NCBI GenBank assembly: GCA_024709165.1 | Contig: JANJXF010000091.1 | Coordinates: 1 to 48,457, forward strand | Length of the DNA: 48,457 bases | From: Thiobacillus sp. | GTDB lineage: Bacteria > Pseudomonadota > Gammaproteobacteria > Burkholderiales > Thiobacillaceae | Direction: 5' to 3' | Shown here: in pieces, positions 5,155 through 27,630 of the stretch | How the letters are laid out: every line of letters begins with the position of its first letter | Position numbering within the stretch: position 1 is the first letter of the stretch | Position numbers and translations under genes: made by a program | The notes under the pieces: generated by a model | The model's input: the letters and a program-made list of their open reading frames with translations, nothing else | Told to the model about the DNA's origin: nothing | Databases searched by the model: none

Positions 5155-8100
5155 TCAGTGATACACCCGCGCCTCGCCGCCGATGCCGGACGTGTAGAGG
5201 TGGGTAAAGACCAGATTGGCCTTCAGCGTGATCTCGTCGGGTTCGTAAGACCCTGGAGGCAGGGCCGCATACAGGTGCTTGATGATCTCGGCCTTGATCT
5301 GCGCCTGGGCCGTCGCCTTCTCACGCCAGTGGTCGATCTGCAGTTTGTCGGAGATCAACTTATCCAAGAGTTCCTTGGCGATCTGCTTGATGCGGTCGCG
5401 GTTGCCTTTGGTCAGTGACTCCTTCTGCAGCAGGTCGAAGACGGCTAGCTGATCGTCGTTTTCCAGCCCCTCGCGCAAGTACCGTTTCTCTTCCTCGTTG
5501 AGCTTGTCGTTGAAGGCGAAGAGGTCGTCCATCACCTTCTGGATTTCGGCGGCATCCTTGTCCTTGTTGTATTCCTTGACGATCTCTTGGTAGCGCTCGT
5601 AGAGATCGACGCGGGTCGGATTGCGCGCCAGCATCATCGCCAGCCGCTCCTCGATCTTTTCCTTGAGGTTCAGCGTCACCACGTTCTTGAACGGTGACTT
5701 CTCGAACTCTGCACGCAGGCGTGTGAAATCAATGTTCGACAGGTCATATTGCTTGACCGGCTGGTTGCCGACCAGGCGCGTGCCGCCGCCATCGGTGGTC
5801 AGGGCGGTATCCACCACCTCATAGAACGACTGCAGCAGCGCGCTGACATCCGGCGTCGTGCGAGCATCCTGCAGCTTGTTGTAAATGGCGCTGACTGCGC
5901 TCTCTTCGGCATCGTGCGCAAATAGGCCGGGGTGCGGGAACAGCCCGCGATGCCGTGCCTGCACATCCTCGACGATGACCTGATAGGTCTTGCGCCGCTC
6001 GTCGGTCTCGCAGAGCAGATCGACGGCCCGCAGGATCAGCGACTGTTTGTCGAACCCCTGGGCGGCAATCAAATCGCCCACGTCGTAGCCGAGATCGCCG
6101 AGAAATTCCGTGGCCTGCTTGAGGCTGTTTGCGTATTCGGCCAGGGCCTCGATGTCGTCGCGCAGCGCATCCGCCTCGCCGGCTCCCTTGCCACCGCTGC
6201 GGTCCCCCTGGGCGAAAGTAGCCAGGGCACGCCGCAGGCTCTTGAGCATGCCGTTGTAGTCGATGATGAGCCCCAGCTTCTTGCCGCCGCCGACGCGATT
6301 CACCCGGGCGATGGCCTGCATCAGCGTGTGGCCCTGCATCGGCTTGTCCAGATACAGGGTGGCCAGGCATTTGACATCAAAGCCGGTCAGCCACATGGCG
6401 CAGACGATGGCCACACGGAACGGGTGGTCGGCCTTCTTGAACTCCTTTTCCAGATTCCGGGTCACCATCTTTTCCCGGTGCGGCGTGATGTCGAGCGGTG
6501 CATCCTGCCAGTTCTTCCACTTCTTGAACTCGGCCACCTCGCCCTGCTCCTGCGAGACCACCACACACATCTCGGTGGCCTTCATCCACTCGACCTGCTC
6601 GCGCCGAATCTGCAGCAGTGCATCGGGCGTCTTGCCCTTGGCGGCGAACAAGGCCTCCTCGGTGGCCACCTTGGTTTCCAGTTCCTCGATCTTGGCCTGC
6701 CACTTCGCCACGATCAGATCGTGCATCTTCACGCAGGTAATCTTGTCGAGGCACACCAGCATCGCCTTGCCTCCGCCATTCTCGACGACTCGCCAGCGCT
6801 GGTGGTAGTGGTCGACAAAATCCTGCGCCACCTTGTCCAGCCGGGTGGGCGAGGTCAGGATCGGGTAGTCACGCGACAGCTCGCGGTAGAGCTTTTCTTC
6901 CTTTTCCTCCGTCCACGGATCGTCCAGCGTTGCCGTCTGCCGGGCCGCCTCGATGCGCTGTTCGATACGTTCATTGACGGTGGCGTCGACGATCCGCAGC
7001 TTCTCGCCGCGATTTTCATAGAACAAGGGCAGGGTCGCCTTGTCGGCCACGGCACGCTGAAAATCGTAGATCGACACATAGTCGCCGAACACTTCGCGGG
7101 TCAGCTGCTTTTCGGCGGTATCGATCAGCGGCGTGCCGGTGAAGCCGATGAATTTCGCCTGCGGCAGCGCCTTGCGCATATTGAGCGCCAACCGGCCATA
7201 CTGTGTGCGGTGCGCCTCATCGGAGATGACGATGATGTCGGAACGCAGAGAGTAAGCCTCGGTCACCAGCTCACGGTATTTCTGCACCAGCGCGAACACA
7301 TAGCGCCGGTTTTCCTCGCGCAGCATCCGGCGCAGTTGTTCGCCGTTCTTGGCCTGGTCGGTCTTGCTGTCGGCCTTGCCACAGTTGGTGTAGGTCGCGG
7401 CGATCTGGTCGTCCAGTTCGGTGCGATCGGTGATGACCACGAAAGTCCAACTGGCCGAGAGTTTGCGGTGAATCTTCTCGGTGAGAAACACCATCGAGTA
7501 AGACTTGCCCGAGCCCTGGGTATGCCAGAACACGCCGAGCCGGCCCTTCGCCACATCGTCACGCACGGTCGTGTCGCCGGAAACCAGCCGCTCGACCACC
7601 CGGTTGACGCCAAGGTACTGGTGATTGCGGGCGACGATCTTGTGCACCTCGCCCTCGCTGCGGTCGAAGAGGATAAAGTTTTCCACCAGATCGAGCAGGC
7701 GTTCCCTGGCCAGCATGCCGGAGAGCAGAATGCGCAACAGTGGCTGATCGGATGGCGGTTCCGCATCATCCTCGTCGAGGCGCTTCCAGCGGTAGAAGTG
7801 CTCCATCGTCGACGTGATCGAGCCGTACTGGGCATCGGCGCCATTGGAGATGACGATCAGCGCGTTCCAGTGGAACAGGTGCGGAATGGTGTCGAGGTAG
7901 TCCCGATAGTTCTTCTTGTAGGCGTTGTCGATGTGCACCTCGAAACGCTTCAGCTCGACGAACACAAGCGGCAGGCCATTCACAAAGCAGACGATGTCCG
8001 GTCGGCGCAGCCACAGCCGGCCGCGCACCCACAGTTCGCGCACGGCGATGTAGGTGTTGTTGCCGGGCACGTCGAAATCAATCAACCGCAGCCGCTTGTC

Positions 8101-8445
8101 TGCCAGCCGGCCGTCTTCGCGCAACTTCACCGGCACGCCATCTTTGAGCAGGCGGTACTTCTCCTCGTTGCTCTGCAGCAGGGTCTTGGTCACGTCCTCC
8201 TGGAGCACCTGCGCCAGTGCTTCGGCATACGCCTCCTCGGGCAAGCCGGGATTGAGCCGTCGCAAGGCCGCGTCGGCATCGCGCCGCAGTACGGTCTCCC
8301 GGTCCGACAACCGGCCCAACAGGCTATCCGGGCCGAAGTCCTCCTCGTCGTGGGCGAAGACGGACTGCCAGCCGAGTTCCTTTTCCAGGAATTCGGCGGC
8401 GGGCGCCTGAATCAGCAGGTCTTCGGAATAATCCTTCTTGGCCAT
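5155..8445 (-). CDS. hsdR: Type I restriction endonuclease subunit R (system A)
   Basis: N-terminal nuclease region, GVFWHTQGSGKSYSM Walker A, ISDEAHRTQYG DEAH motif, GFTGTPL, ARVNR. Confidence 0.93.
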   Translation of the reverse strand: MAKKDYSEDLLIQAPAAEFLEKELGWQSVFAHDEEDFGPDSLLGRLSDRETVLRRDADAALRRLNPGLPEEAYAEALAQVLQEDVTKTLLQSNEEKYRLLKDGVPVKLREDGRLADKRLRLIDFDVPGNNTYIAVRELWVRGRLWLRRPDIVCFVNGLPLVFVELKRFEVHIDNAYKKNYRDYLDTIPHLFHWNALIVISNGADAQYGSITSTMEHFYRWKRLDEDDAEPPSDQPLLRILLSGMLARERLLDLVENFILFDRSEGEVHKIVARNHQYLGVNRVVERLVSGDTTVRDDVAKGRLGVFWHTQGSGKSYSMVFLTEKIHRKLSASWTFVVITDRTELDDQIAATYTNCGKADSKTDQAKNGEQLRRMLREENRRYVFALVQKYRELVTEAYSLRSDIIVISDEAHRTQYGRLALNMRKALPQAKFIGFTGTPLIDTAEKQLTREVFGDYVSIYDFQRAVADKATLPLFYENRGEKLRIVDATVNERIEQRIEAARQTATLDDPWTEEKEEKLYRELSRDYPILTSPTRLDKVAQDFVDHYHQRWRVVENGGGKAMLVCLDKITCVKMHDLIVAKWQAKIEELETKVATEEALFAAKGKTPDALLQIRREQVEWMKATEMCVVVSQEQGEVAEFKKWKNWQDAPLDITPHREKMVTRNLEKEFKKADHPFRVAIVCAMWLTGFDVKCLATLYLDKPMQGHTLMQAIARVNRVGGGKKLGLIIDYNGMLKSLRRALATFAQGDRSGGKGAGEADALRDDIEALAEYANSLKQATEFLGDLGYDVGDLIAAQGFDKQSLILRAVDLLCETDERRKTYQVIVEDVQARHRGLFPHPGLFAHDAEESAVSAIYNKLQDARTTPDVSALLQSFYEVVDTALTTDGGGTRLVGNQPVKQYDLSNIDFTRLRAEFEKSPFKNVVTLNLKEKIEERLAMMLARNPTRVDLYERYQEIVKEYNKDKDAAEIQKVMDDLFAFNDKLNEEEKRYLREGLENDDQLAVFDLLQKESLTKGNRDRIKQIAKELLDKLISDKLQIDHWREKATAQAQIKAEIIKHLYAALPPGSYEPDEITLKANLVFTHLYTSGIGGEARVYH

Positions 8446-8939
8446 TATTGCGCCGCCCCCAAAACGAATTTTGCTTTTTCGATACGCAGCATCTGGTAGG
8501 GCGTCATGAAGCGCAATCCCAGGCCAATGCACACGTTCGGGATCTTGATCCGCTTCAATGAGTTCTCAGGCTTCTCATGCGTGACGACGACGTGTCCGCC
8601 CGCCAGTGCGTGGGCGACGAGGTAGAAATCCGCCACTTGCAAGAAGGTATTGATTGCAGCGGGTTCGTACTGTTGTCCTGTCACCCAGGTACTGACCTTG
8701 CCGAACTGTGCGGCGACAGCCGTATCCGTCTTGCGGAAGAGACCGTTGCCGAATTGATCAACCCAGTCCGTCAACTCATCGGCGCCGGCAGCAATTTCGT
8801 CGGACACCTTGTCGATGCTGAAAACACGCCCATTGGCATTGTTGTCGATCAGCCATTGCCAGAACGCGGGACAGAAATCCAGGCCGTAGTGCAGATTCTT
8901 GGCCTGGATGAACACGTTGGCATCGAGCAGATAACTCAT
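8445..8939 (-). CDS. DUF4411 PIN-like protein, candidate toxin
   Basis: MSYLLDANVFIQAKN...FYLVAHALAGGHVVVTHE; PIN-like start and family pattern. Confidence 0.75.
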   Translation of the reverse strand: MSYLLDANVFIQAKNLHYGLDFCPAFWQWLIDNNANGRVFSIDKVSDEIAAGADELTDWVDQFGNGLFRKTDTAVAAQFGKVSTWVTGQQYEPAAINTFLQVADFYLVAHALAGGHVVVTHEKPENSLKRIKIPNVCIGLGLRFMTPYQMLRIEKAKFVLGAAQ

Positions 8940-10087
8940 GCCATCACCCCCAGCTCGCGTGCAGCTTCATAGAAGGTGGCGGTCTTACGCACACCCAACA
9001 TGCGGAACGCATCCTGAAAAAGCGTCTGCCCCTCCAGCGTGCTGGTTACGATGGCTCGGGCAAAACGCTTGCTGGTACGGGCGCCGAGCGTACGGTAGAA
9101 ATCCCCGCCGCCTGTGCCGTGGCGCTCCAGGCCCCGCAGCCGGGCCTGCTCCTCGCGGTAGTGCTGCCACAATCGCGCCTGGTCGATGAACCCGGCATCG
9201 AACAGGCGACGCAGGGCTACCAGGGTGCTGACCTTGAATTCGCGCGCCAGCCGCTGAATTTCCTCGGGGACCGGAGTGCCCGCCTGATAGGCCGCGCGTA
9301 CCGCCTGCAATGGCATCAGCAGTTCAGCCGCCACCTGATTGCACCAGCGCTCGGTGTGCTGCTCCGGCACCTGGCCGGCCTCGGTATCCGATATGCCAGT
9401 GGCGCCCAACCACAGATGCGCCAGTTCATGCGCCAGCGTAAACATCTGGGCGGCCTTGCTGTCTGCACCGTTCAGGAAAACCAGCGGTGCCAGTTCATCC
9501 GCCAGCGCAAAACCACGGAACTCACCGACGTCCAGCTTGCGGTGGCTATTGCTGCCGACGATGGAACTGGCCATCACCATCACGCCAGCGTCTTCGGCTT
9601 TGGTGATCAACTGGCGCAGCGCTTCTGTCCAGGTCGACAACTGGCGCCGTTCCTCGGCGGACAGCCCCAGCATTTCGCGCATCCGCTGTGCCACCGCTTC
9701 CGACGACTCCTGAGTGCGGGCGCTGCCGACAAATGCCAATGGTGCAAGTCCATGCACACGGGCGTAGTCGCGGTACCAGTCTTGCCGCTGCTGGCACAAA
9801 TAGAGCGTGTCCAGCAATTCGCTGCTGGGCTCGGCCAGTGTCTCGTCGCGCAGGGTGCGGAAATCGGGTACCGGCAGGGCCAGTGTTGGCGGCTCAGGCA
9901 AAAAGAAGTAGCCGATGGCGGTGTGTGTCAGGCGCGCGAAGTCTTCGAGTTGCTTGAGCGTGGGCTGCGCCTCGCCGTTGAGCCATAACGGCCATTTGCG
10001 GAAACGCACGGCCAGGTCATCGTCGTGCAGGCGCGCACGATGGGCCGCCCAGCGCAGCACGGCGATGGAGGCCGGTACCGTGGTCAT
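8936..10087 (-). CDS. Xre-like/ImmA-IrrE family metallo-endopeptidase
   Basis: HTH-like N-terminus and FTLAHELAHLWLG HExxH motif; overlaps both neighbours by 4 nt. Confidence 0.85.
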   Translation of the reverse strand: MTTVPASIAVLRWAAHRARLHDDDLAVRFRKWPLWLNGEAQPTLKQLEDFARLTHTAIGYFFLPEPPTLALPVPDFRTLRDETLAEPSSELLDTLYLCQQRQDWYRDYARVHGLAPLAFVGSARTQESSEAVAQRMREMLGLSAEERRQLSTWTEALRQLITKAEDAGVMVMASSIVGSNSHRKLDVGEFRGFALADELAPLVFLNGADSKAAQMFTLAHELAHLWLGATGISDTEAGQVPEQHTERWCNQVAAELLMPLQAVRAAYQAGTPVPEEIQRLAREFKVSTLVALRRLFDAGFIDQARLWQHYREEQARLRGLERHGTGGGDFYRTLGARTSKRFARAIVTSTLEGQTLFQDAFRMLGVRKTATFYEAARELGVMA

Positions 10088-11352
10088 GCCACCGCCTCCT
10101 CAGGTAGGCGAATACCGGAGACGTCTAGTTGACCAGACATCAGTTTGGGCAGAAGTAGATCGCGGGCCTTTTCCAACGATGCGTTTGCCTTGCTTAACTG
10201 CTCGGCTTGATCGAGCATGGGCCACACAAGAGTATGGAACTCTCGCCGAAGATTTTCAGGTGGTAACCAGATTTCCATAGCCGCCATATCTGCGCGACTC
10301 AGTTCGAGCTGGTTGGTAGCACCTTTGCCCATGTCCGAGAACTTGGGTTCCAAATTCAGCAGAGACAGGCCAAAGAAGGCAAACGATTCTGTATCTACTG
10401 GCCGTGCAATTGTGACGTGTGTATCTACGGTGCAATCATCGAGAGCCGCGCGAACCAGCGCTGCCCGGCCGAGCGTGCCTGCGCCAGTGGAATTGATCAA
10501 CACGTCCCCGACTTGAACCAACCGCTCAGGCTTCACATCCTTGGATTGGTGGCGGGCCGGCCCCATAGAAAGCCTGCCATCACGAATGCACTTTTGGTTG
10601 ATAACCCACCCTTTGGCGGCATCGTCGTATTTCGGTGCGATCCCACGATTCAGAAACGACGACTGATCGGCAATAGTGGTTTTCTTCCACCCCTCCGGAA
10701 CCCCATCCCGCACGGGCACCGACTCGTGGCCGGGGAAGCGCAGATGCACGAACCACTCGCGGTAGAGCAGCCGCGCCGATTCTTCAAGGAGCTGGATGCG
10801 GCGCTGGTTGGTGGCGATCAGGTCGTCGTAGGCTTGCGCAACTTCCGCGATGGCCTGTTGAGTGGGAAGAGGCGGAAATGGAATCTCGAGCGATTTGAGA
10901 ATGCCGAGATTGATATGGGGCACGCCCGCCGTGATGGTTCGATTCAAGATTTCCTGAATCGTGGATTCAAGGCGAAAGTACTGGTACACGTACCGGGCAT
11001 CTACTTTGCTCGCATCGACAGTGAGCTTCATCTGGCTTTGAGACACCACGTACCTGTCGTACTTCGAGTCCTTCGGGATCAAACCGACCTGACCTAGTGT
11101 GCCTCGTTGCGTGAATAAAACATCGCCGCGGAAGGCTAAATTGGGCCGAAGCTGATCAGCCTTCTCCGGTGTAACGAAAACGAAGCCGCTTTCGTCAAAG
11201 CATCCAGAGCCACCGAGATTCTGGCCACGAATAACTGGTACGCCTTCATCTACATAATGCTTCGATGTCAGGTTCGAACCGAAAGGCCCGCCGACGCACG
11301 CGTAAGGCACGTCGGCCTTGATACTGTCCAGAGTGACTACCGGCCAGTTCAC
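10084..11352 (-). CDS. hsdS: Type I R-M specificity subunit S (system A)
   Basis: Two target-recognition-like halves with conserved IPFPPLPTQQAIAEV region; position between hsdM and hsdR. Confidence 0.9.
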   Translation of the reverse strand: MNWPVVTLDSIKADVPYACVGGPFGSNLTSKHYVDEGVPVIRGQNLGGSGCFDESGFVFVTPEKADQLRPNLAFRGDVLFTQRGTLGQVGLIPKDSKYDRYVVSQSQMKLTVDASKVDARYVYQYFRLESTIQEILNRTITAGVPHINLGILKSLEIPFPPLPTQQAIAEVAQAYDDLIATNQRRIQLLEESARLLYREWFVHLRFPGHESVPVRDGVPEGWKKTTIADQSSFLNRGIAPKYDDAAKGWVINQKCIRDGRLSMGPARHQSKDVKPERLVQVGDVLINSTGAGTLGRAALVRAALDDCTVDTHVTIARPVDTESFAFFGLSLLNLEPKFSDMGKGATNQLELSRADMAAMEIWLPPENLRREFHTLVWPMLDQAEQLSKANASLEKARDLLLPKLMSGQLDVSGIRLPEEAVA

Positions 11353-13592
11353 GCCAGCAACCCCTCGAAGTTCAGCCGAATCCGCTCAGCCAGTTCCACC
11401 GCCTTGCCGTTCAGTTCCTCGATCTCGGCGTGAATCTCGGCCAGTCGTTCCTGGAAGTCATCTTCGTCTTCCTCGGCGGCAGGCGCGACACCGACATAGC
11501 GCCCGGGCGTCAGGCTCCAGTCGTTGGCGGCGATGTCGGCGCGGGCGACCTTCTTGCACAGCCCCGGCACATCGGCGAAGCGCCCCTCGGGGAATCGATG
11601 GTGCAGCCAATGCACTTGCTGGATGAAATAGGCCGCCTGGCGAAAGCCCTCGAGGGCGAGGTCGCGGACGGTGGGGTCTTCGTCCTTCTTCGTGTCGGCG
11701 GCGGTCAGCGCCCGTTTCAGCTCGCGGGCACGGCGGCCATCGAAGGCAGCCGACTGGCGGGCACGTAGCGGCTTCTCTGCGGTGTCGAGCAGTTTGAGCC
11801 AGAGCTTGTGGCGGGCTTCAACGTCCTTCTGCGCGGTCTTGAGCGTGCCGAGCAGCGGTTCGATGGTTGCCTGCAATTCGCGTTGGGCAACGTGCGTGGA
11901 AAAGTCGGCGCTGGCGAGACGGCGCTGGGCGGCGGTAAGTTCGGCCAGCGTGGCATCGAGCCGGTCGGTAATGGCGTGCGTTTCTGTCGCAGCAGCGGCA
12001 AGGTCGGCACGGAAGGCATCGAGTTGTTCCGGGCGCACTTGCCGAACATCCTCTTCGGCCGGTTCCGGATTCGGCGCGCCATCGACCACGGCAGGCTGTG
12101 GCGCCTGGCCGTTCAGTTCGTAGATATTGGTCTTGTCGGCGAAGCCCTGAAGCAGACCGGCAAGCGTACCCACCGTATCGGTATCGGCCTGGATGCGCGC
12201 CGGGATGGCGCCCAGCCAGTCGGCCACCTGCCGGAGGTAGCTGGCCACCAGGGCGACGAACTTCTCGTGCTGCCCCCGGTAGAGCCAGACGATGGCGTTG
12301 AGGTTGGCGAGTTGTTCTTCGGTGAAGACGTGCGAGCGGGCCGAAACCACGTGGTAGACGTTTCGGGCGTCGATCATCAGCACGTGGTCGTTTAGCGCCT
12401 TGGGCTTGCCCTTGTCGAAGAACCACAGGGTGCAGGGCAGGCTGCGGGTGTAGAAGAACTTGGTGCCGATGGCGACCATCACATCCACGTCGCCGCTTTC
12501 CACCAGTTTCTGCCGGATGTCGCGATCCTTGTTGGCAGCGTCCGATGCGCTGGAGGCCATGACGAAGCCGGCACGGCCCGCCGCGTTGAGGTAGCTGTAG
12601 AAATACTGAATCCACAGGCTGTTGGCATTGGAGATGGCGCCGGTCTTGGCGTTGGTGCCGGTCTTGGCGTTGGTGCCGGGCAGGCCAAAGGTCAAGCGGC
12701 CACCGACCTGGGGCTCGACCTTCTTGGTATCCACCGAATCGACGTTGAAGGGCGGATTGGCCATGACGAAGTCGCACTGGCCGACGAGATTGTGGTGATC
12801 CTCGTAGAAGGTATTGCCCTGAATGATCTTGCCGTCGAGGCCATGCACGGCGAGGTTCATGCGCGCCAGCTTGGTGTTGGTGTCGGATTTTTCCTGCCCG
12901 AAGAAGGTGACCTTGTCGTTCGGGTTCTGGTGGCGCACGCCCTCAATGAAGTGGCCGGTCTGCACGAACATGCCGGCCGATCCGCAGGCCGGGTCGAGCA
13001 CGATGCCGTGATCCGGTTCGATGACATTGACGATCATTCGCACCAGCGAGGGCGGCGTGAAAAATTCGCCGCCTTCCTGGGCTCCGCTCTGCGCAAACTT
13101 GTTGAGGAAGTATTCGTAGATGCGGCCGAACACATCGCCCGTGGCGCGGCGCAGGGATTCGCGGTTGAAGATCTTGATCAGCTCGGCCAGCAGATCGGGC
13201 TCGAAGGCGGTGTAGCCACGAGGCAGCGCACCCTTGAGAATTTCGACTTCGTCCTCGATGCGCTGCATGGCGTCGTCGATGGCCTGGCCGACCTTGGCGC
13301 CCTGCGGCAGTGCCGCCAGCGTTTCGAATCGTGCCTGCGCCGGGAGGTAGATGGCGGCCTTGCCCTGGAAGCCGAGGCGGATTAACTCCTCGCGCTGCGC
13401 GGCCGGCACCTGCGGCGGAATGTCGGCCTCGATTTCCGGCAGATAGACCTTGAAGCGATTATCGGCATGGCGCAGGAAGATGAGGCCGAGCACCGGCATC
13501 GAATATTCGGCAGCGGTCAGCTTGGAGTTGGCGCGCAGCTGGTCGGCGGCCTCCCAAAGTTCTTTTTCCAGATGATGCAGGTTAGTCGTCAT
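11349..13592 (-). CDS. hsdM: Type I DNA methyltransferase subunit M (system A)
   Basis: DPACGSAGMF and NPPF motifs, EFFTPPSLVRMIV. Confidence 0.95.
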   Translation of the reverse strand: MTTNLHHLEKELWEAADQLRANSKLTAAEYSMPVLGLIFLRHADNRFKVYLPEIEADIPPQVPAAQREELIRLGFQGKAAIYLPAQARFETLAALPQGAKVGQAIDDAMQRIEDEVEILKGALPRGYTAFEPDLLAELIKIFNRESLRRATGDVFGRIYEYFLNKFAQSGAQEGGEFFTPPSLVRMIVNVIEPDHGIVLDPACGSAGMFVQTGHFIEGVRHQNPNDKVTFFGQEKSDTNTKLARMNLAVHGLDGKIIQGNTFYEDHHNLVGQCDFVMANPPFNVDSVDTKKVEPQVGGRLTFGLPGTNAKTGTNAKTGAISNANSLWIQYFYSYLNAAGRAGFVMASSASDAANKDRDIRQKLVESGDVDVMVAIGTKFFYTRSLPCTLWFFDKGKPKALNDHVLMIDARNVYHVVSARSHVFTEEQLANLNAIVWLYRGQHEKFVALVASYLRQVADWLGAIPARIQADTDTVGTLAGLLQGFADKTNIYELNGQAPQPAVVDGAPNPEPAEEDVRQVRPEQLDAFRADLAAAATETHAITDRLDATLAELTAAQRRLASADFSTHVAQRELQATIEPLLGTLKTAQKDVEARHKLWLKLLDTAEKPLRARQSAAFDGRRARELKRALTAADTKKDEDPTVRDLALEGFRQAAYFIQQVHWLHHRFPEGRFADVPGLCKKVARADIAANDWSLTPGRYVGVAPAAEEDEDDFQERLAEIHAEIEELNGKAVELAERIRLNFEGLLA

Positions 13593-13602
13593 CGATGAAA
13601 TG

Positions 13603-14016
13603 CTACGTCCTCGCCTCGGGGGCGATCAGGGTGACATTGGCAAAGTAGGAGGCGTAGCGCCGGGTATCCCGGGTCAGGATCGGATAGCGCGACACGGCGG
13701 CATGGGCGCCGATGAAGAAATCAGCGAGCACGTTCTCTTTCTTGCCACCCTGCCGGCGATAGCGCACGAAGGCCTTGCCAGCGAGGAACAAGGCGGGCCG
13801 TGGAATCTCGATCACCGCCAGGCCCAAATCATCGACAGCACGGTCCAGGGCTTCGACCGTCGAAAAAGTCAGCGACAGTTCGGAGTAGATGATCGGGTTG
13901 ATGGCGAGGCGGTGAATCTTGGACTGCGCCCGCAGCTGGCCGATGGACCAGTCCGCCCATTCCGGATCGTCCTCCAGAATGTCGACCAGCACATTGGTAT
14001 CGACCAGCAGCATCAA
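13603..14016 (-). CDS. PIN-domain toxin, VapC-like
   Basis: MLLVDTNVLVDILEDD...ADFFIGAHA...ILTRDTRRYASYF. Confidence 0.88.
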   Translation of the reverse strand: MMLLVDTNVLVDILEDDPEWADWSIGQLRAQSKIHRLAINPIIYSELSLTFSTVEALDRAVDDLGLAVIEIPRPALFLAGKAFVRYRRQGGKKENVLADFFIGAHAAVSRYPILTRDTRRYASYFANVTLIAPEART

Positions 14017-14253
14017 TTATTCACCGCGTAACAGGGCCATCAGATCGTCGGTGCGCCATTTCACGTCGGCCTTGCCACGGGCCGCCTCGAAGCGGTCCGG
14101 CTTGCGACTGGGCCGTGCGCCGACCTTGTGAATCACGACATCGCCTTCACGATTGACCGCGAAATCAACCGAGCAGCCCGGGGCCAGATTCAGCGCGTCG
14201 CGGATCTGCTTCGGGATGGTGACCTGCCCTTTGCTGGTGAGTGTGGTTGCCAT
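14017..14253 (-). CDS. AbrB/SpoVT-like antitoxin, VapB-like
   Basis: TLTSKGQVTIPKQIRDALNLAPG motif; adjacent to the PIN toxin. Confidence 0.88.
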   Translation of the reverse strand: MATTLTSKGQVTIPKQIRDALNLAPGCSVDFAVNREGDVVIHKVGARPSRKPDRFEAARGKADVKWRTDDLMALLRGE

Positions 14254-14265
14254 GATGCCTCCTTC

Positions 14266-14292: not shown

Positions 14293-14399
14293 CACGAAAG
14301 AATGCCTGCAAACCCCGCCGAGTTGATCAGATTCAGCTTGGCTTCCTGATCGAACAGCGCCTGAATGGTGGCGTCGTCAATCACATCACGGAGCCCCCG

Positions 14400-14600
14400 A
14401 TGAACGCCAAACCAACCACCATCGACGCCTACCTAGCCCGCACCGCCGCCATCCACGCCAAGCTGGAACGGTTGCAGCAACTCGCCGACGACCACTTCGG
14501 TCATGACCCTGATGCCATCCATTGGGGCCACGTCGGCGACCTCGGGAGAGTGGAGGCCGGGCTGGACGAACTGCTGGCGATCTTCGGCGGCGACGAGTGA
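14400..14600 (+). CDS. Small conserved backbone protein (66 aa), unknown function
   Basis: Near-identical paralogue at 28118-28318. Confidence 0.75.
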   Translation: MNAKPTTIDAYLARTAAIHAKLERLQQLADDHFGHDPDAIHWGHVGDLGRVEAGLDELLAIFGGDE

Positions 14601-14628
14601 CGACGCCCACCAACCAGCGGAGATCGAC

Positions 14629-15147
14629 ATGACTGCCCAAGCCAAACTCACCGACACCCAGACCGCGATTCTCCAGGCCGCCGCTGGCCGCCCGGACGGC
14701 AACATCGAACCCCTGCCGACTACCCTTCGCGGCGGCGCCCGCACCAAAGTGATCGAGGGCCTGCTCGCACGAGGGCTCATCGTTGATGCCGATGGCCGCC
14801 ACCTGCTTACCGATGCCGGCTACGCCGCCGTCGGCAAACGTCGCCCCGTCTCCAAGGGTGCCCGGAATGCAGGTATCTCAGATGCCCTCACGAAACGTGA
14901 CCCCACCGGTGACCTCCAGAAGTTGGAGACCACCCCGCCCACCATCCGCCCCGACACCAAACTGGCCGCGATCATCGAAGCGATGCGCCACCCTGGCGGC
15001 GCGACCATTACCCAAATGATGGCTGGCACCGGCTGGCAGGCTCACACCGTTCGCGGCGTGATCTCCGGCATGGTCAGGAAGCGCCTCGGGCTGAACGTGG
15101 CGCTGGTACGCAACGATTCCGGCGAGCGGGTGTATCGGGTGATCTGA
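14629..15147 (+). CDS. DUF3489-like backbone protein
   Basis: MTAQAKLTDTQTAILQAAAGRPDGNIEPLP...MMAGTGWQAHTVRGVISGMVRKRLG; paralogue at 28347-28856. Confidence 0.8.
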   Translation: MTAQAKLTDTQTAILQAAAGRPDGNIEPLPTTLRGGARTKVIEGLLARGLIVDADGRHLLTDAGYAAVGKRRPVSKGARNAGISDALTKRDPTGDLQKLETTPPTIRPDTKLAAIIEAMRHPGGATITQMMAGTGWQAHTVRGVISGMVRKRLGLNVALVRNDSGERVYRVI

Positions 15148-17701: not shown

Positions 17702-18403
17702 TCATACCCGATCATACTCCCGCGTTGCCTCCAGCAGCTTAGCCTTTCGGTCCGCGTAATCGGGCATCAATCCCTCCAGACGGCGCCAATACTCGTCGTT
17801 GTGATGTGGCTCCACGAGATGAACCAACTCATGAGTAATCACGTAGTCGATCAGCCGAATTGGGAACTGAAGTAGTCGCCAATTGAAATTAACCCGGCCA
17901 GCAGCGCTGCAGGAGCCCCAACGGTTGCTCAGGTCGAGAATCTCTACGGTGCTCGGCAAAAGCCCATACCGGTCGGACAGCAGCTTCACCCGTTCCTTGA
18001 TCCAATGCCCGCCCGTCACCTGAAACCACTCCTTGATCCGTGTCTCGGCGTCGGCCTTATCCGACAACCTCAGTTCCAGCCATCCCGCCCTGCAATGTAC
18101 TGCCCCGGTCTGTTCAGTAACGAAACGAATACGGTAACTACGGCCAAGGTAGTAAACAGCGTCACCGCTCACATACCCTGCTGAGCGAGGGATCGGCCGG
18201 GATGCCTCCTTAATGGCGAGCTTCTGATACACCCAGAGCAGGCGGCTTTTCGCCCATATTTCCAGTTGCTCACGAGGCGTCGCCTCCGGAGCGTAGAGCT
18301 TCAATTCACCAGAGCGATCAACGGTCAGCCCAAGAGTCTTGCGCCGGCTGCTACGCTGGATCTCGAATAGCAGATCACCGACCGAGAGCGTTTCCGTGCT
18401 CAT
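17702..18403 (-). CDS. YgjP-like zinc metallopeptidase domain protein (DUF45/WLM type)
   Basis: RWGSCSAAGRVNFNWRLLQFPIRLIDYVITHELVHLVEPHHNDEYW with HExxH. Confidence 0.85.
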   Translation of the reverse strand: MSTETLSVGDLLFEIQRSSRRKTLGLTVDRSGELKLYAPEATPREQLEIWAKSRLLWVYQKLAIKEASRPIPRSAGYVSGDAVYYLGRSYRIRFVTEQTGAVHCRAGWLELRLSDKADAETRIKEWFQVTGGHWIKERVKLLSDRYGLLPSTVEILDLSNRWGSCSAAGRVNFNWRLLQFPIRLIDYVITHELVHLVEPHHNDEYWRRLEGLMPDYADRKAKLLEATREYDRV

Positions 18404-21400
18404 CCCACCAGTACCTCATGATTGTGCTTTGCAAGCGCCACCAGTTGGAAGGCAAGGTCTCGGGCAGCCTGGGCTTGCAGCCCGCCCGTGGTCATTAGCT
18501 GGCGCACCAGATGTTTGGTCAGCATGTCGCGAGCGTGAGCATTCTTCCAAAATCCGATGCGTTTGATCTCCTGCCGGATATGGTCGACGAGGTCGACAGT
18601 CATGCCAACAAGTTGTTGTTCCCGTGACGTATCGAACGCCGCATTCTTGGATGCCACTTCCAGCACCAGCCGCACGAACGGAACCTGGACATCCGGATCG
18701 AGTCCCGGAAAATCGTTGCGGTCGCCCTCCTTTAGTTCTTTGATGAACTGCTTCAGCGCCTGTTCCAGCGCCTCCCAGTTGTCCTTGAATGACTTGAGAA
18801 TCTCCTCCAGCTTTTCGCTCATCTTCTTGGCGTAGGCCGGATTTTGGAGTTCGAAGCTGACGATGTGATACCGCGCTGCGTGCTGCATTTCGGCCGCCCG
18901 GGTCTTCGAAGATTTCTGACCGGCCACCACCTTTTCGAAGTCCGTGTCGGTAATCGTGATCGGTGGAATCTTGGGATCTACACCCCTGGCCGCGACGTGC
19001 TTGTCGATCAATGCACGGACACGTTCCGGCACGCCAAGCAAATTCAGCGTCGAGTCACGATACAGGTTGGCAGCAACCTTGTTGATGAAGCCCAGCAGCT
19101 TGGCATCGCGGAACATTTCCGGCGTTACCTCCGGACGGTGTTCGAGGATGCTCAGCGTTTCGTAGAAGAGGCGCAGCTTGTTGATGAAGTCGGCACGTAT
19201 TTTCAGGTCGGCGAGCAAATCGACCGCAGCCTGGACACCTCCGAGCAAGTCCGTAATTCCCCGATCCGAGAACACCGCCATCACCCGGGCGTGGCGGTCA
19301 CGCAGCTTCGGCAACTCGGTGTTGATATCGAGGCCGATGCCCTTGAGATCGTCGGCGTCGTAGTCACCCAATGCATCATTCAAATGGCGGGCCACGCCGA
19401 TGTAATCCACCACGTAGCCGCGAGGCTTACGGCCACTGGTGCGGTTCACGCGGGCGATTGCCTGCAGCAAGTCGTGCGCGATGATTCTGCGGTCGAGATA
19501 CATCACCTGCTCGACGGGTGCATCAAAGCCCGTCAGCAGCATGTTGGTCACGATCAGGAGGCCCAGGGGGTCGGTCTTGTCCGACTGGGCCGGTGCCAAG
19601 CGCCGCTTGAACCGCTCGACCAGTTCTTCCTGCTTCTCCTTGTCCGTCCACTGTTTCCACGATTCGGGATCGTTGTGATTGCCGGACATCACGACTGCAA
19701 ATTCGAGTACCCGAATCAGGTCAAGCTTCGGATGCACATCGATCAAGAATCGCGTCTCGGCATCAAGCTTGGCCTGGTCATCTTCGGGCAGGGCAAGAAT
19801 GGCGGGCGACACGGCTTCCAGTTGCGCTACGAGAGTAGCCCTAGCGGCCATGAGTTTCTCGTAATAGATCACCGCCGCATTGCGGCTGGTGGCGACCACC
19901 TGGCCCTTGTATCCCTCTGGTAGCACTACGCTCGCATAGTGCCGAAGTATGTCGGCCGCCTTCTTCTCAATCAGTAGCGGTGCCTCAAGCACATCTCCCT
20001 GGGTGGCGTACTTGGCCTTGATGATGGCGAGTTCGGTATTGGTGTACCCCCGGAACAAGTCCTCGAATACCTGATCGAGGCTGGTTGCGTCCTTCACCAT
20101 GCCGTCGGCAGTACGACCTTCATACAAGATGGGCACGGTAGCGCCATCCATCTCCGCATCCTGGAGCAGATACCGGTCGATGTAGTCGCCAAAGATTTCC
20201 CGCGTCTCCGTTTTTTCCTTGGACAGAATCGGCGTGCCGGTAAATCCGATGATGGCGGCGTTCGGCAATGCCTTGTGCAGGTTCCGGTGCAGCGTCCGGG
20301 TATGGGAACGGTGCGCCTCATCCACCAGCACCAGGATGTTCTCCGAGTCGTTCAGCTCAGGGAACTGTTCGAACTGGATGGTTTCCTCAAAAGTGACCTG
20401 TTTGATTTCCTCGACACGTTCCGGAACCTTGTCTTCACCCTGCTCGGCGACGCGGATTTCCTTGCGGGCGATGGTCAATTTGATCTTGTCCGCCTCGCGT
20501 CGGGCTTCCTGATCCTGGTATTTCTGGATCATGGCGAACAAGATATCGGGGGATTGCTCACTCAAAATCCGCTGTGTTGCTGCAGTCGCCGATTCCCTGC
20601 GTTGCTTGTCGCTTTCTGATGGGCGCACTGTCTCGCCGGTAAGGGAGGCTGTTTCGCGCAGCTGCTTCTCCAGATCACTCCGATCCGTAACCACCACGAT
20701 CTTGAACTTTCGGAGATCGCCCAGCGTGCGCATCTTGCGCACCAGAAACACCATTGTCAGGCTCTTGCCCGAACCCTGCGTATGCCAGACGATGCCGCCG
20801 CGTTCGTCCCGTTCTGCGCCTGCTACGCGACTGCGGCCGGTATTGAGGCGCTCGATGGCCTTGTGCACGGCGCGGAACTGCTGATAGCGCGCCACCACCT
20901 TGCGCGTCTTGCCCTCTCCTGACTGGAACAGGGTGAAATTGCGCATCACATCCAATAGATGATCGGGGCGCAGCATGCCCGCAACCAATATTTGTTGGCT
21001 TGCCAGTCCCTTGCTGGAGGCGACCGGCGCTGCGGATTGCGCGGTGTCGGCCGCCCCCTCGGCATCCCTCTGCCGATAGAACAACGGCGTCCCGGCCCGA
21101 TCCGCCTGCTCTGGCCCGAGCGCACGCAGTTCGGTGGACGCCGCCACTTCGGCTTCGGCAATTTCCTGCGTGCGCGGAATCAACCCGACTTCCTCGCCTA
21201 CCTGCGACATCGGCACCGGGCTGGTGTCGGCCCACTCCAGATAGACCTCGGGCGGGGCACCAATGGTCGCCGCGCGGGCCTCGAAGAAATTGCTGACGAT
21301 CAGCAACTGGTTGGAATGGAACAGTCGCTCGGCCCCTTCGTCTTCGGTGTATTGCTCAGGGTAGAGCTCCTTGCGCTGATTGGTGTAGCGAAGCAGCTGG

Positions 21401-21960
21401 TTGATCGCCTGGGCAATGGGTGCCTCGATGCCAGGGCTCTTGAATTCCGCCACCACCAACGGGATGCCGTTCACGAACAGAACTGCATCCGGAATGATGT
21501 GGCCTCGTCCGCTGGTCAGTTGTACCTTGAACTGGTTGATGACCAGAAAGTCATTGTTCTCTGGGTGGTCGAAATCGATGTAGCGCAGCGGCTGCTGGCG
21601 ACCGGCGTCCCATCCGGGCAAACCATCGGTCACCGTACCCTTGAGCAGCAGTTCGGTAACCTGCCGATTCGCCTCCATCAAACGCAGGCCAGCGGTCAGT
21701 TCCAGTTGCCGAATTGCCCGCTCGATGCGCGCATCATCCAGCCAGGGCCGCCCGTCCGGGCCGAGGTTGATCTTGTGCAGCGCCTTGGCCAGCCGATCCT
21801 TGAGCAGCACCTCACGGAAATTTGCACGCTCGGTGAGTTCGGGGACATCAGTGTCACCGGTCAGCCACTGCCAGCCCATCTTTTCGAGCTGCTGACAGAA
21901 GGGCTGCTCGACCAGCAGTCCCTCCCATTCAATCTTGTTGTTTCCGCTGCTGTAAGCCAT
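18400..21960 (-). CDS. hsdR: Type I restriction endonuclease subunit R (system B)
   Basis: GIVWHTQGSGKSLTMVF, ILVLVDEAHRSHT, GFTGTPI, ARVNRTSG. Confidence 0.93.
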   Translation of the reverse strand: MAYSSGNNKIEWEGLLVEQPFCQQLEKMGWQWLTGDTDVPELTERANFREVLLKDRLAKALHKINLGPDGRPWLDDARIERAIRQLELTAGLRLMEANRQVTELLLKGTVTDGLPGWDAGRQQPLRYIDFDHPENNDFLVINQFKVQLTSGRGHIIPDAVLFVNGIPLVVAEFKSPGIEAPIAQAINQLLRYTNQRKELYPEQYTEDEGAERLFHSNQLLIVSNFFEARAATIGAPPEVYLEWADTSPVPMSQVGEEVGLIPRTQEIAEAEVAASTELRALGPEQADRAGTPLFYRQRDAEGAADTAQSAAPVASSKGLASQQILVAGMLRPDHLLDVMRNFTLFQSGEGKTRKVVARYQQFRAVHKAIERLNTGRSRVAGAERDERGGIVWHTQGSGKSLTMVFLVRKMRTLGDLRKFKIVVVTDRSDLEKQLRETASLTGETVRPSESDKQRRESATAATQRILSEQSPDILFAMIQKYQDQEARREADKIKLTIARKEIRVAEQGEDKVPERVEEIKQVTFEETIQFEQFPELNDSENILVLVDEAHRSHTRTLHRNLHKALPNAAIIGFTGTPILSKEKTETREIFGDYIDRYLLQDAEMDGATVPILYEGRTADGMVKDATSLDQVFEDLFRGYTNTELAIIKAKYATQGDVLEAPLLIEKKAADILRHYASVVLPEGYKGQVVATSRNAAVIYYEKLMAARATLVAQLEAVSPAILALPEDDQAKLDAETRFLIDVHPKLDLIRVLEFAVVMSGNHNDPESWKQWTDKEKQEELVERFKRRLAPAQSDKTDPLGLLIVTNMLLTGFDAPVEQVMYLDRRIIAHDLLQAIARVNRTSGRKPRGYVVDYIGVARHLNDALGDYDADDLKGIGLDINTELPKLRDRHARVMAVFSDRGITDLLGGVQAAVDLLADLKIRADFINKLRLFYETLSILEHRPEVTPEMFRDAKLLGFINKVAANLYRDSTLNLLGVPERVRALIDKHVAARGVDPKIPPITITDTDFEKVVAGQKSSKTRAAEMQHAARYHIVSFELQNPAYAKKMSEKLEEILKSFKDNWEALEQALKQFIKELKEGDRNDFPGLDPDVQVPFVRLVLEVASKNAAFDTSREQQLVGMTVDLVDHIRQEIKRIGFWKNAHARDMLTKHLVRQLMTTGGLQAQAARDLAFQLVALAKHNHEVLVG

Positions 21961-22004
21961 TCGCCCCCCTGCCTGTTACGATCCGCCCCAGTTCAGGGCG
22001 AGGA

Positions 22005-23054
22005 TCAATGCATCCAGCCCCTCTGTGCCAACTGCATCCAGGCCGCGCGGATATGATCCGGCTTGAAGATATTCTGTTTGCGCGGGTTCCAGGCGTGCAC
22101 CACGTTGGTGGCAGCATCTACATCGGGAGCAGGCGCTTCGCCCTGACGACCACCGTAATGCGCAACCCAATGCACGGTGGCCAGCAGTTCCATGCCGTAG
22201 GGGGTTTCGAACCCCTCGATCAGGTCGGCAACCTGTTCGAGACGGGTCAAGGAATCCCGTTTGTCGGCGAGGAATGCCGAAGCTTCATCAACGGCACCCG
22301 GCAACAACTCGATCTCGGCATCCGGCTTCTGGCTGTCCCCATAGCCGCGAATGAAATGCCCCTCCATGACCTCCAGCACCTTGTTGAGGTTGGGTGCATA
22401 GGGACCGTAATGCCCGGCTTCGTAGTTCAGTCGCAGGGGCTCACCGGCTTCCTGCAGGAAATAGGCGAGCTTCTGCACTTCCAGCAGGGTACGGCTGTAG
22501 TCCAGGGCCGAATAGGCGTCCATCAATCTGATGAACAAGGCTCGCGCCGGTGTCATGTGCGGGCGTTCCGTCCGTACCGGCATCGCCTTGGCTTCCGGAG
22601 CCCCCGCAGGCTCGAACAGCAACACTTGCACATCCGGCAGACTCGCGAAGGCCTGCTCGATCATCGGCCGCACCACTCTCCATTCCAGCCCGCCCAGACC
22701 GCAACCCAGCGGCGGCACCGCGATGGAGCGGATACCCAGCCGTTGCACATCGGCCACCAATGCACTCAGGCCGGATTCGATATCCTCGATGCGCGACTTG
22801 CCCTTCCAATGCCGCTTGGTCGGGAAGTTGATGATGTAGCGCGGATTCACCAAGCCGCCGTTATCGTGGATCATCATCTTGCCCGGCACCATGTCGCCAG
22901 CGTGGCAAGCCGCCTCGTAATGCTTGAAGTTGGCCGGGAAGGCCTGCTTGAATTGCAGGGCGATGCCCTTGCCCATGTAGCCGACACAGTTGACCGTGTT
23001 CACCAGCGCTTCGGCTGGTGCTTCCAGCAGGTTCCCACGGGTGAGTTCGATCAT
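22005..23054 (-). CDS. darG: DarG-like macro-domain antitoxin
   Basis: N-terminal macro domain (GNLLEAPAEALVNTVNCVGYMGKGIALQFK...PPLGCGLGGLEW) plus C-terminal domain; adjacent to the DarT-like gene. Confidence 0.88.
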   Translation of the reverse strand: MIELTRGNLLEAPAEALVNTVNCVGYMGKGIALQFKQAFPANFKHYEAACHAGDMVPGKMMIHDNGGLVNPRYIINFPTKRHWKGKSRIEDIESGLSALVADVQRLGIRSIAVPPLGCGLGGLEWRVVRPMIEQAFASLPDVQVLLFEPAGAPEAKAMPVRTERPHMTPARALFIRLMDAYSALDYSRTLLEVQKLAYFLQEAGEPLRLNYEAGHYGPYAPNLNKVLEVMEGHFIRGYGDSQKPDAEIELLPGAVDEASAFLADKRDSLTRLEQVADLIEGFETPYGMELLATVHWVAHYGGRQGEAPAPDVDAATNVVHAWNPRKQNIFKPDHIRAAWMQLAQRGWMH

Positions 23055-23067
23055 CGAACGCTCTCCT

Positions 23068-23724
23068 CTAGTAATACCAGCCCGTCTTGACGGCGACCTG
23101 GGGTCGCGCCCGCTGCGGGAACTGGTTCAATATGTTTTCGACACGCTGCTGCATCGCAGCGTTCAGTACTACGATGCCACGAATCAGGGACCAGTCCAGC
23201 GACTGCCAGACCAGGAATTCGGCCTGCTTGCGGCGCTGCCGGTCGTTGTCATCCGGCTGATCTGACCAGTAACGTTCCCCGACGATATCCCAATCCACTT
23301 GATCGAGTTGTGCCAGATCGTCGTACCAGTCCGTGAATCCCGCCAAGCCATGACCATCCGAGAATACGAACCGGCACCCCGCCTGCTGGACAGCCTGCGC
23401 CGTGGTCACCAAATAGACCAGCGGCTCCTGACCCTCGGTGTAGCCAGGCACCCGCCCGGTCTTGAGATTGAGCAGCATCACCGACAACGGGCCGAAGTAG
23501 AACGGCAGGTAGTCATGAATCGTCCCGCCCGGGCCGCAGGGAATCTGCCTGACGTGGCGGCTTGCCTGCACGCTTACGTTGTGGATGGGACGGTAGGGCA
23601 AGCCGTCGTTCGGCGTTGAATGCGGCGCGTGCAACACGCCCCGAGTCAGCAACGTGGCAAGGTTGTCCACATGCACCAGGCGGTACAGCCAGGTTGGGCT
23701 CGGAGGTGCGGCGGGTGGCATCAC
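23068..23724 (-). CDS. darT: DarT-like (DUF4433) DNA ADP-ribosyltransferase toxin
   Basis: LYRLVHVDNLATLLTRG...HDYLPFYFGPLSVML...RRKQAEFLVW with the putative catalytic Glu retained. Confidence 0.87.
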   Translation of the reverse strand: MMPPAAPPSPTWLYRLVHVDNLATLLTRGVLHAPHSTPNDGLPYRPIHNVSVQASRHVRQIPCGPGGTIHDYLPFYFGPLSVMLLNLKTGRVPGYTEGQEPLVYLVTTAQAVQQAGCRFVFSDGHGLAGFTDWYDDLAQLDQVDWDIVGERYWSDQPDDNDRQRRKQAEFLVWQSLDWSLIRGIVVLNAAMQQRVENILNQFPQRARPQVAVKTGWYY

Positions 23725-24971: not shown

Positions 24972-24975
24972 GGAT

Positions 24976-27630
24976 TCAGAGCACATAGCCCAATCCTTGA
25001 AGCAGTCGACCAACGCTGTCTCGCAGCGCTTGCTGCGTCTGCTGCATTTGAAGCAGGGTAACGCTGTACTTGTCCCACAGCTTTTCGACGCAAGCAACCA
25101 GCATCTGCCGCTTTCTTGCTACAGCCCCATCCAATGATGCCTGTACCCGCTCCTCCAACAGCCGCAATACCAACTCTGCAGTCTGCGACTCGCTCATATC
25201 GTTGCAGCGCTGGGTCAGGGTATCGAGAAACTGATTCAACAGTTCCCGATAGCGGGCGCGGGTGGCAGCCAGGTCGGCCTTGATCGTCTCGTAGGGTTCA
25301 AGCTCAGTTTGCAGCGCCCCAATCTGGTCGAGCATCGGCGCGAGTTGAACCCTGAGGCCCGCGTGCTCGGTGGCGAAGGCCGCATTGCCGGCATGCTTCT
25401 TCATGCCGAGTTTCTTCTCCAGTTCCTTGAAACGCTTCAAGTCTTCACGGATGCTGTCCTTGATCTCCTTGATGCGGCGCTCCAGGTCCTTGGCGTAGTT
25501 CCAGCCTTCGACCTCCTCCTCGTCTTCGGGCGGGTTCTGGGCTTCCCACGCTTCCTTCTCGGCCCGCAGGCGGGTGATCTCCTGGCGCTCGGTCTCGATC
25601 TGGGCAAGGTAGTCCTGCATGGTGTGCTGGACCAGCGGATGGGCGAAGGGATCGAACAGGGGACCGCTCGCTTCATCATCTTCCAGCGCGTCGGCGATGG
25701 CATCCAGCCAGCCATCGATGACGCCAGCGAAACCGCGCTCCATCAAGGTCTTGAGGTCGGGAAGACTGTCGCTCCACCAGCCGGCCACCACGCCGGCAAG
25801 CTGGAAGCGGTCCAGCGCGCCAATCGGCGACAGTGCAGTGCCAAAGGTTTCCAGGAACTCGTTGCGCACCCCATTGAGGTCACGGCGATTGGGCAGATCG
25901 GCCAGCCGGTGGCTGTGGGTGGCCCACCAATCGTCGCAGGCCGCGAATATCTGTTCGCGCCTATCGCGGATGCCGGTGTCGGCCTCGATCACCCGGCGAA
26001 TGGCAGCGCGGCTATCGAGCACCTCGGCAAAGTCTGCATAGCCGGTTTGGGCGGCGAGGTAATGCGCCGAGGGTTCGCGCACACCCAGCACACCGTGCGC
26101 ATTCGTGGCACCGGGACCGTTGCGATATGTGAAAAGATGCTCCGGGTTCAGCCCGACTGCCTCGAATAGCGAACGCTTGGCTTCGATTTCCGCAACCGGC
26201 ACGCCACCTTGCAGGTGTGCCCTGACATCGTGGGGCTCCGGCGGCGGAGCGTTGTCCACGTAACGGCGGATGTTGAGGTTGTAGTCGTTGTCGGCCAGTT
26301 CCTGCACGCTCACCGCGCGAGCATAGGCCGGCACATTCTCGAAACGCTCGAAGGTAGAGATGATCTTCTCCACGTGTTCGGGCTTGAGGTAGTTCTGGGC
26401 GCGCCCGGCGTGGTATTCGGCATCGGCGTTGATGAACAGCACCTGCCCGCGCCGTCCTGTCGGCTTGCGGTTGGGCTCCGGGCGCAGCACCAGGATGCAG
26501 GCGGGAATGGTGGCGCCGTAGAACAGGTTTTGCGGGAGTCCGATGACGGCCTCGACCAAATCCTGCTCGATCCACTTCTGACGAATCTTCTTCTCTTCGC
26601 CACCCCGGAATAGCACCCCGTGGGGCATGACTGTCGCAACCATGCCGGTCGGCTTACACACCGCCAGCATGTGCTGGGCGAACATCAGGTCGCCCTTCTT
26701 GCCGGTTGTCGGGCACCACCCCCAACGGAAGCGCTCGGGGAACTCCATGTTGGTTCGGGAGTAATTCTGGCTGAACGGCGGATTGGCGATCACCCGGTCA
26801 AAGCGCTCCAGTTCGCCGGCCTCGCGATGTAGTGGGTGCAGCAGGGTGTCCTCGCGCTCGATATGGGCGTCGGGGATGCCATGCAGAATCATGTTGAGCT
26901 TGCATATGGTCCAGGCGGACACGTCGAGCACCTGCCCGGCGAGGCGCATGTCGGCGCTGTCGCCGCCGCACTGTTCCACATACTCCTTGGAGAGGATGAG
27001 CATGCCGCCCGAACCGCAGGTCGGGTCGTAAACGCTCATGCCCTGCTGCGGCTTGAGCAGACGAACCATCAGGCGCACCACGTCGCGCGGCGTGTAGAAG
27101 TCACCACCTTTTTTGCCCGCCGATTCGGCGAACATGTTGATCAGGAATTCGTAAGCGGCGCCGAGCAGATCGGAGAACTGGAAATCGCCGTTACGGAAGC
27201 GGTAACGATTGAAATGTCGCGCCAGTGCCCGGCAGTCCTCGTCGTTGATGACGCGCTTGTTGCCGACCTGCTTCATGAAATCGATATGGTCGAGCACGCC
27301 TTCCAGCGGGCCGTTGTGCTCGCCCAGCTTGGTCAGTGCCGTGTTGAGCAGCGTCGCGTAGCGGTCGGCATTGAGGTTTTCGATCAGATATTGCCAGCGT
27401 GATTCCGAGGGGACGAAGAAGCTGTCGTAGAACATCGGATCGTCGGCCATCGCCACACCATGATCCGTGATGACCTTCTCGCGCTCGGCCTCGAAGACGT
27501 CGGAGCAGCGCTTGAGGAACAGCATGCCGAAGATGAAGTCCTTGTACTCCGACGCATCCATCTTGCTGCGCAGAATGTCTGCTGCAGCGTAGAGGTGCCT
27601 TTCAAGCTTGGCGAGTGATAACCGTGCCAT
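24976..27630 (-). CDS. hsdM: Type I DNA methyltransferase subunit M (system B)
   Basis: [33 protein letters not shown]; long coiled-coil C-terminus. Confidence 0.95.

Follow-up and report, generated by a model that had tools for sequence, protein, structure and literature searches.

Predicted toxin-antitoxin modules between hsdS and hsdR in two type I restriction-modification operons of Thiobacillus

Gene content of the two operons

We analysed a stretch of 48,457 nucleotides (nt) from Thiobacillus sp. (assembly GCA_024709165.1, contig JANJXF010000091.1; hereafter the window), which contains two type I restriction-modification (R-M) operons, A and B. In each of them hsdM, hsdS and hsdR lie in one operon and match the corresponding Pfam and PADLOC families, and a toxin-like pair of genes is found between hsdS and hsdR. 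Open reading frame calls and profile searches give, on the minus strand, the order hsdM-hsdS-[IrrE/M78-DUF4411 PIN]-hsdR for operon A and HTH-hsdM-hsdS-[DarT-DarG]-hsdR-ygjP for operon B, where HTH is a helix-turn-helix gene (Table 1). This is the layout that a sequence-only reading of the same DNA had described, and its statement that the two pairs are non-homologous and share one slot holds as well.

The genes are tightly packed. In operon A the junctions M/S, S/IrrE and IrrE/PIN, read from the sequence, overlap by 4 nt each, and the PIN/hsdR junction overlaps by 1 nt (TAATG), with the stop of the toxin gene on the start of hsdR. In operon B the S/DarT and hsdR/ygjP junctions overlap by 4 nt each. 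The overlaps of 1-4 nt listed in the earlier reading are real, but the DarT-DarG and DarG-hsdR junctions are short gaps of 13 nt and 44 nt. The overlaps suggest co-transcription and translational coupling, so that the modules would share the expression of the R-M genes.

Operons A and B are only distantly similar to each other (HsdM 25%, HsdR 31% and, over a short stretch only, HsdS 24% identity), and by this comparison they are assigned to different type I families. Because of this assignment they are not regarded as one operon that has been duplicated; subunit identities of 24-31% rule that origin out. Only two N6_Mtase genes are found in the genome, which is incomplete, and they are those of operons A and B.

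Table 1. Genes of the two type I operons of the window, with the supporting profile matches (E-values)
Feature	Positions	Strand	Evidence and remarks
AbrB antitoxin + VapC/PIN toxin, heading operon A	14017-14253 + 13603-14016	-
hsdM, operon A	11349-13592	-	N6_Mtase 1e-71, HsdM_N 8e-17; PADLOC MTase_I
hsdS, operon A	10084-11352	-	Methylase_S 2e-20; 4-nt overlap at either end
IrrE/M78 antitoxin, VapB52-like	8936-10087	-	Pfam Peptidase_M78 6e-20; 9vzy_A match
DUF4411 PIN-domain toxin, VapC52-like	8445-8939	-	DUF4411 9e-56; 9vzy_D match
hsdR, operon A	5155-8445	-	HSDR_N 3e-37, SWI2_SNF2 3e-68; ATG at 8445
Excisionase-type HTH regulator, first in operon B	27643-27897	-	HTH_17 6e-16
hsdM, operon B	24976-27630	-	N6_Mtase 2e-97
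hsdS, operon B	23721-~25013	-	Methylase_S 4e-20; start uncertain, overlaps hsdM end
DarT, predicted DarT2-type single-stranded DNA (ssDNA) thymidine ADP-ribosyltransferase	23068-23724	-	DarT 9e-56
DarG macro-domain antitoxin	22005-23054	-	Macro 1e-24; NCBIfam DarG equivalog 3e-141; PADLOC DarG
hsdR, operon B	18400-21960	-	HSDR_N 2e-37, SWI2_SNF2 1e-71
YgjP-like metallopeptidase, final gene of operon B	17702-18403	-	YgjP-like 2.5e-49

The hsdS-hsdR gap across type I operons

Is this gap a preferred site for such genes? The sequence-only reading had proposed surveying it for toxin and antitoxin families. With the HsdR N-terminal family as anchor, we searched 249 Pseudomonadota genomes and fetched 100 regions, mostly those with the strongest HsdR matches and with several coming from some genomes. 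Genes were called with a codon-based caller and hsd genes labelled with iterated profiles, which left 76 operons in which M, S and R follow one another in this order. One or more additional cistrons are present in the S-R gap of 54 of the 76 operons and in the M-S gap of 23, the latter number being an upper bound since two of the M-S “guests” are pieces of HsdS. Operons in which the occupancy of the two gaps differs favor the S-R gap by 34 to 3 (sign test, p-value = 1e-7).

The guests are very varied, with one to five in each occupied S-R slot. A PADLOC tally of the guests was dominated by one family; the classification given here is by Pfam. Among the 91 guests, the leading families are Fic (9), YhcG/DUF1016 (7), AAA_13 (6) and RhuM (6), followed by Abi_2, AbiEii-like and AAA_21 (4 each), Abi_C and Schlafen (3 each), and TIR, SIR2 and zeta (2 each). 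Fic, YhcG, RhuM, AAA_13 and Abi_2 each have fewer than two members in the 101 genes that flank the same operons. Toxin and abortive infection (Abi) families are thus enriched in the slot; this excess over the flanks, together with the occupancy, argues that the hsdS-hsdR slot is a general toxin/Abi hotspot, as has already been suggested (PMC12255303). The sequence-only reading had named a lack of such enrichment among the results that would speak against it, and the survey does not show that lack. The S-R slots of the 76 operons contain neither DUF4411 nor DarT, which makes each of them an uncommon guest in a slot that is often filled. Overlapping junctions are common in the occupied slots of other operons (89 of 152), and for this reason we rejected the overlaps of 1-4 nt as a special sign of coupling. 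A YgjP-like metallopeptidase gene lies directly 3' of hsdR in 22 of the 76 operons.

Identity of the operon A pair

By its domains and motifs, the operon A pair is a toxin-antitoxin (TA) module of the VapBC52 kind. Its closest solved relative is PDB 9vzy, in which an HTH protein and a DUF4411 protein form a complex. Both the antitoxin (9vzy_A, E = 1.8e-21; by profile 7.5e-28) and the toxin (9vzy_D, E = 1.4e-6) match this entry. From agreeing residues and domains, we infer that 9vzy is the VapBC52 complex of PMC13273310, a paper whose text does not carry the code. In Mycobacterium tuberculosis, VapB52 is an HTH/IrrE-type peptidase antitoxin that cleaves itself at an FR linker in the presence of ssDNA, the known trigger of this system, and thereby frees VapC52, a PIN tRNase that protects M. 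smegmatis against phage D29 when overexpressed (PMC13273310).

The window antitoxin has the same parts: an HTH domain, a DFR linker (F76 R77), a HELAH motif (H220/H224) with E246, and a C-terminal domain, and it adjoins a PIN toxin with acidic residues D6, E48, D104 and E122. Among 81 relatives of the antitoxin, the zinc-site residues H220, E221, H224 and E246 are kept in all, as is R77, while F76 is kept in 78. The pair thus shares with VapBC52 its domains, the FR linker, the HEXXH motif with its Glu, and the PIN acidic residues; it differs in being embedded in a type I R-M operon, in having Ser in place of the “switch” Cys, and in that the sequence similarity is remote.

Structure models agree with this assignment. 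The AlphaFold2 model of the antitoxin (predicted local distance difference test score, pLDDT, 82.8) shows three domains, namely HTH, peptidase and C-terminal, with a linker of low confidence at the FR site. In fold it is closest to ssDNA-sensing CapP, IrrE and ssDNA-bound PprI. The DUF4411 protein (pLDDT 89.5) is closest in fold to VapC/FitB PIN toxins, although these matches are weak (E >= 1.7e-3). The Foldseek library, which runs to April 2026, returned no match to 9vzy for either model. Another system to be compared is RosmerTA, an anti-phage system in which an ImmA/IrrE antitoxin, RmrA, is combined with a variable toxin, RmrT (PMC10440598). Both have an IrrE-type antitoxin with a non-homologous toxin, and RmrA profiles match the window antitoxin moderately (best 3e-16), but the operon A toxin is a DUF4411/PIN protein.

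Operon B and the RRDM island

In operon B, adjacent DarT and DarG genes both match NCBIfam equivalogs over the cut-off. The best solved match of DarT is Thermus DarT 7omv (3.7e-48), with a Glu at the aligned catalytic place. A similar arrangement has been published as a functional island in enteropathogenic Escherichia coli (EPEC): the RRDM island consists of RptR, a type I R-M system, DarTG2 and an M48 peptidase, protects against phage and is induced upon infection (PMC12255303). Operon B shares with it the gene order regulator-M-S-DarT-DarG-R-M48, including the slot of DarTG and a YgjP/M48 metallopeptidase as the last gene. Identities to an E. coli RRDM copy are 35% for DarT, 43% for DarG, 36% for HsdM and 26% for HsdR.

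Unlike the RRDM island, operon B has no RptR, and its first gene is a non-homologous excisionase-type HTH gene. The HTH protein lacks similarity to the 79-amino-acid RptR-like protein of E. coli, which rules out its being RptR, and no TAGCTA is found upstream of operon B, whereas an E. coli RRDM copy (L229) has two. It matches MAD1 with 65 bits, under the cut-off of 80. The protein is 69-70% identical to the HTH proteins that precede hsdM in two A-type operons, L008 (5220-5456) and L224 (4383-4604); operon A of the window lacks this gene. Judged by gene order and identities, operon B is an island of the RRDM type that has diverged and has a different regulator.

Contexts of the two modules in other genomes

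To see where else the operon A pair occurs, we scanned GTDB with a DUF4411 alignment, took the nearest 80 loci and tallied by hand the 66 with readable context. IrrE-DUF4411 lies between hsdS and hsdR in 29 of these, 26 in the order S-R (6 at contig ends) and 3 in the order R-S. Of the other copies, 2 lie between hsdM and hsdS, 5 are close to type I genes and 20 belong to an Eco57I-type R-M operon; a lexA-imuB-type cassette holds 1, and the remaining 9 are elsewhere. The Eco57I-type operon reads small methyltransferase (MTase), IrrE-DUF4411, Eco57I MTase, GIY-YIG/ResIII helicase (L055:8125-14668 and 19 further loci), with the pair always between the two MTase genes. Sites without the pair exist in Deinococcus pDrdVI and Rhizobium phaseoli. 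As these empty sites already hold two separate genes, the M218/Eco57I context is not one MTase split by the pair. In the single lexA-imuB-type locus (L078:7407-14576), IrrE-DUF4411 is flanked by a lexA-like gene and an imuB-like polymerase gene; after the latter comes a gene of 1036 amino acids, possibly dnaE2.

On a quick tree of the antitoxins, with several long branches, the three context classes need 9 changes, compared with 26.6 when labels are shuffled; the Eco57I context forms one derived group, while type I contexts are scattered through the tree. Carriers whose antitoxin is 66-82% identical to that of the window often have an HsdR only 20-32% identical to its counterpart, and 111 of 156 carrier pairs with IrrE identity of at least 65% have HsdR identity below 35%. 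The pair has therefore moved among unrelated type I operons and landed in the same gap: IrrE-DUF4411 has entered the S-R slot of unrelated type I operons repeatedly.

Of the 20 DarT loci that were fetched, 6 have this gene next to hsdS of a type I operon. In L262 (4610-10772), hsdM, hsdS, darT, darG and an IrrE-type gene form one operon, followed by a transposase-like gene, and in L079 IrrE-DUF4411-hsdR and DarT-DarG-hsdR occur on one contig. The two pairs are thus interchangeable occupants of one slot and can stack. Both pairs are also found without R-M genes: among the remoter plasmid copies of IrrE-DUF4411 that we inspected, four are standalone, while a near-identical plasmid copy sits in the S-R slot.

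These contexts bear on the proposal of the sequence-only reading that loss or inhibition of R-M subunits sets off the toxin. A toxin in the slot would then be silenced by the Hsd complex and released once R-M is gone or a phage anti-restriction protein blocks it. There is a precedent in prrC, which lies inside a type IC operon, is kept inactive by EcoprrI and is switched on by T4 Stp (PMC2610378, PMC3874165, PMC12707154). PrrC comes without an antitoxin, and its silencer is the Hsd complex (PMC2610378, PMC3506569). The persistent residence of IrrE-DUF4411 in R-M operons fits such guarding. So do the AAA_13-type guests at 6 of the 91 slot places, a family that we take to include PrrC. The likeness to PrrC/EcoprrI extends to the presence of an RNase toxin within a type I hsd operon, but PrrC is an ABC-ATPase/anticodon nuclease without an antitoxin and is homologous to neither pair, whereas each toxin of the window adjoins a dedicated antitoxin. 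Moreover, both pairs exist without R-M, and the HsdR and HsdM proteins of carriers are often only 20-32% identical to those of the window, with no obvious conserved silencing surface; Hsd partners of one conserved pair that are so divergent make a conserved silencing contact unlikely. Firing on R-M loss is thus not specifically supported, and we regard guarding by the Hsd complex as quite unlikely. Other parts of the sequence-only reading are supported: the slot is shared, operonic and, across type I operons, enriched in toxin/Abi families, and IrrE-DUF4411 recurs in R-M operons and keeps this residence on moving between unrelated ones.

Flanks and neighboring elements

A direct repeat of 757 bp, 86% identical between its copies (14330-15086 and 28048-28795) and containing a DUF3489 gene, stands at the head of each R-M operon. 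Shorter repeats are present at 17053-17542/36710-37448 and 15736-15841/29034-29139. The repeated flanks suggest cassette exchange between them. A ParD-ParE-like pair (ParD by profile, ParE by position only) lies between the operons at 15840-16414, and a serine recombinase gene with a DUF2924 gene (34701-36508) is the probable mobility module of the island.

Operon A is headed by an AbrB-VapC pair that the sequence-only reading did not include. AbrB matches NCBIfam TIGR01439 (E = 9e-12) and VapC has a weak match (E = 7e-6), under the family cut-off; the VapC stop is about 12 nt ahead of the hsdM ATG. Since the pair lies directly upstream of hsdM, operon A may hold two PIN toxins. A related layout, with AbrB-VapC just ahead of IrrE-DUF4411, occurs on a Sphingomonas plasmid (L228).

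Could the gap simply tolerate insertions, with the modules acting as selfish stabilizers of their operons and taking no part in a joint defense? The variety and number of guests per slot, the TA genes nearby (ParDE, AbrB-VapC), the mobile flanks and the stacking of DarTG and IrrE in L262 fit such a passive hotspot or addiction. The guests are, however, enriched for Abi and toxin families and are not random cargo, and the EPEC island is phage-protective and infection-induced (PMC12255303). We hold this explanation to be very unlikely.

Discussion

The reading that we favor, and consider fairly probable, is that the two pairs are autonomous abortive-infection TA modules in the S-R gap, co-expressed with R-M, triggered by infection and restrained by their own antitoxins. 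Two unrelated type I operons of one defense island would each host a self-contained module, which very likely shares a transcript with the hsd genes and is coupled to them in translation, and the silencer of each toxin would be its antitoxin and not the R-M enzyme. When a phage survives restriction, an infection cue would release the module. In operon B, the modification of ssDNA thymidines in replicating phage DNA by DarT may outpace its reversal by DarG. In operon A, by homology with M. tuberculosis VapBC52, the trigger is probably ssDNA: the IrrE-type antitoxin would cut itself at the Phe-Arg linker, and the freed PIN domain would cleave tRNAs and stop growth.

Two observations weigh against this reading. 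The position of the VapB52 “cysteine switch”, C229, is Ser in 78 of the 81 relatives, the window protein included; the ssDNA switch may therefore work differently or be lacking. In addition, near relatives of the pair reside in R-M operons so persistently, at 56 of the 66 loci, that a claim of full independence from R-M seems to understate the link.

It is tempting to link restriction and module more closely. Action of the type I enzyme (translocation, breaks, exonuclease processing) could make the ssDNA that activates IrrE self-cleavage and supplies DarT with its substrate; the pair would then be a second tier, set off when restriction is heavy or failing. The appeal of such a relay lies in the link of both toxins to ssDNA, be it cue or substrate (PMC13273310; DarT2 homology). 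In its favor, two unrelated kinds of restriction operon contain IrrE-DUF4411, one copy lies beside lexA-imuB, and the fold matches include ssDNA-sensing CapP and ssDNA-bound PprI. Against it stand the lack of conservation of the Cys-switch residue and the standalone copies, which work, if at all, without R-M. On balance we think the relay unlikely. A related possibility, doubtful but worth stating, is that IrrE-DUF4411 is a mobile ssDNA-sensing protease-antitoxin/tRNase that serves as a dedicated second tier of restriction and repeatedly enters restriction operons because restriction produces its trigger.

How much of this has been seen before? The arrangement of operon B is already published as the EPEC island (PMC12255303). 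An earlier hypothesis of immunity-suicide coupling placed toxins within R-M systems and held that immune systems lack typical antitoxins (PMC3506569); here, full TA modules are embedded. Embedded defenses are the subject of a preprint by Payne et al. (2024) on guilt-by-embedding, which, as cited in PMC12255303, shares the general idea of toxins sitting inside R-M operons. In the literature searched, which did not extend to that preprint, we found no report of a VapBC52-type module recurring in restriction operons, nor of the occupancy and enrichment figures.

A layout known from anecdotal cases (prrC, RRDM) becomes measurable in this way: of the type I operons sampled from proteobacteria, about 70% have passengers in a single gap, and Abi/toxin families are prominent among these. 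The repeated entry of IrrE-DUF4411 into unrelated restriction operons makes immunity-suicide coupling testable with one transferable cassette. If the module is indeed a dedicated second tier, then its presence in the hsdS-hsdR and MTase-Eco57I gaps would turn DNA cleavage into growth arrest when infection persists.

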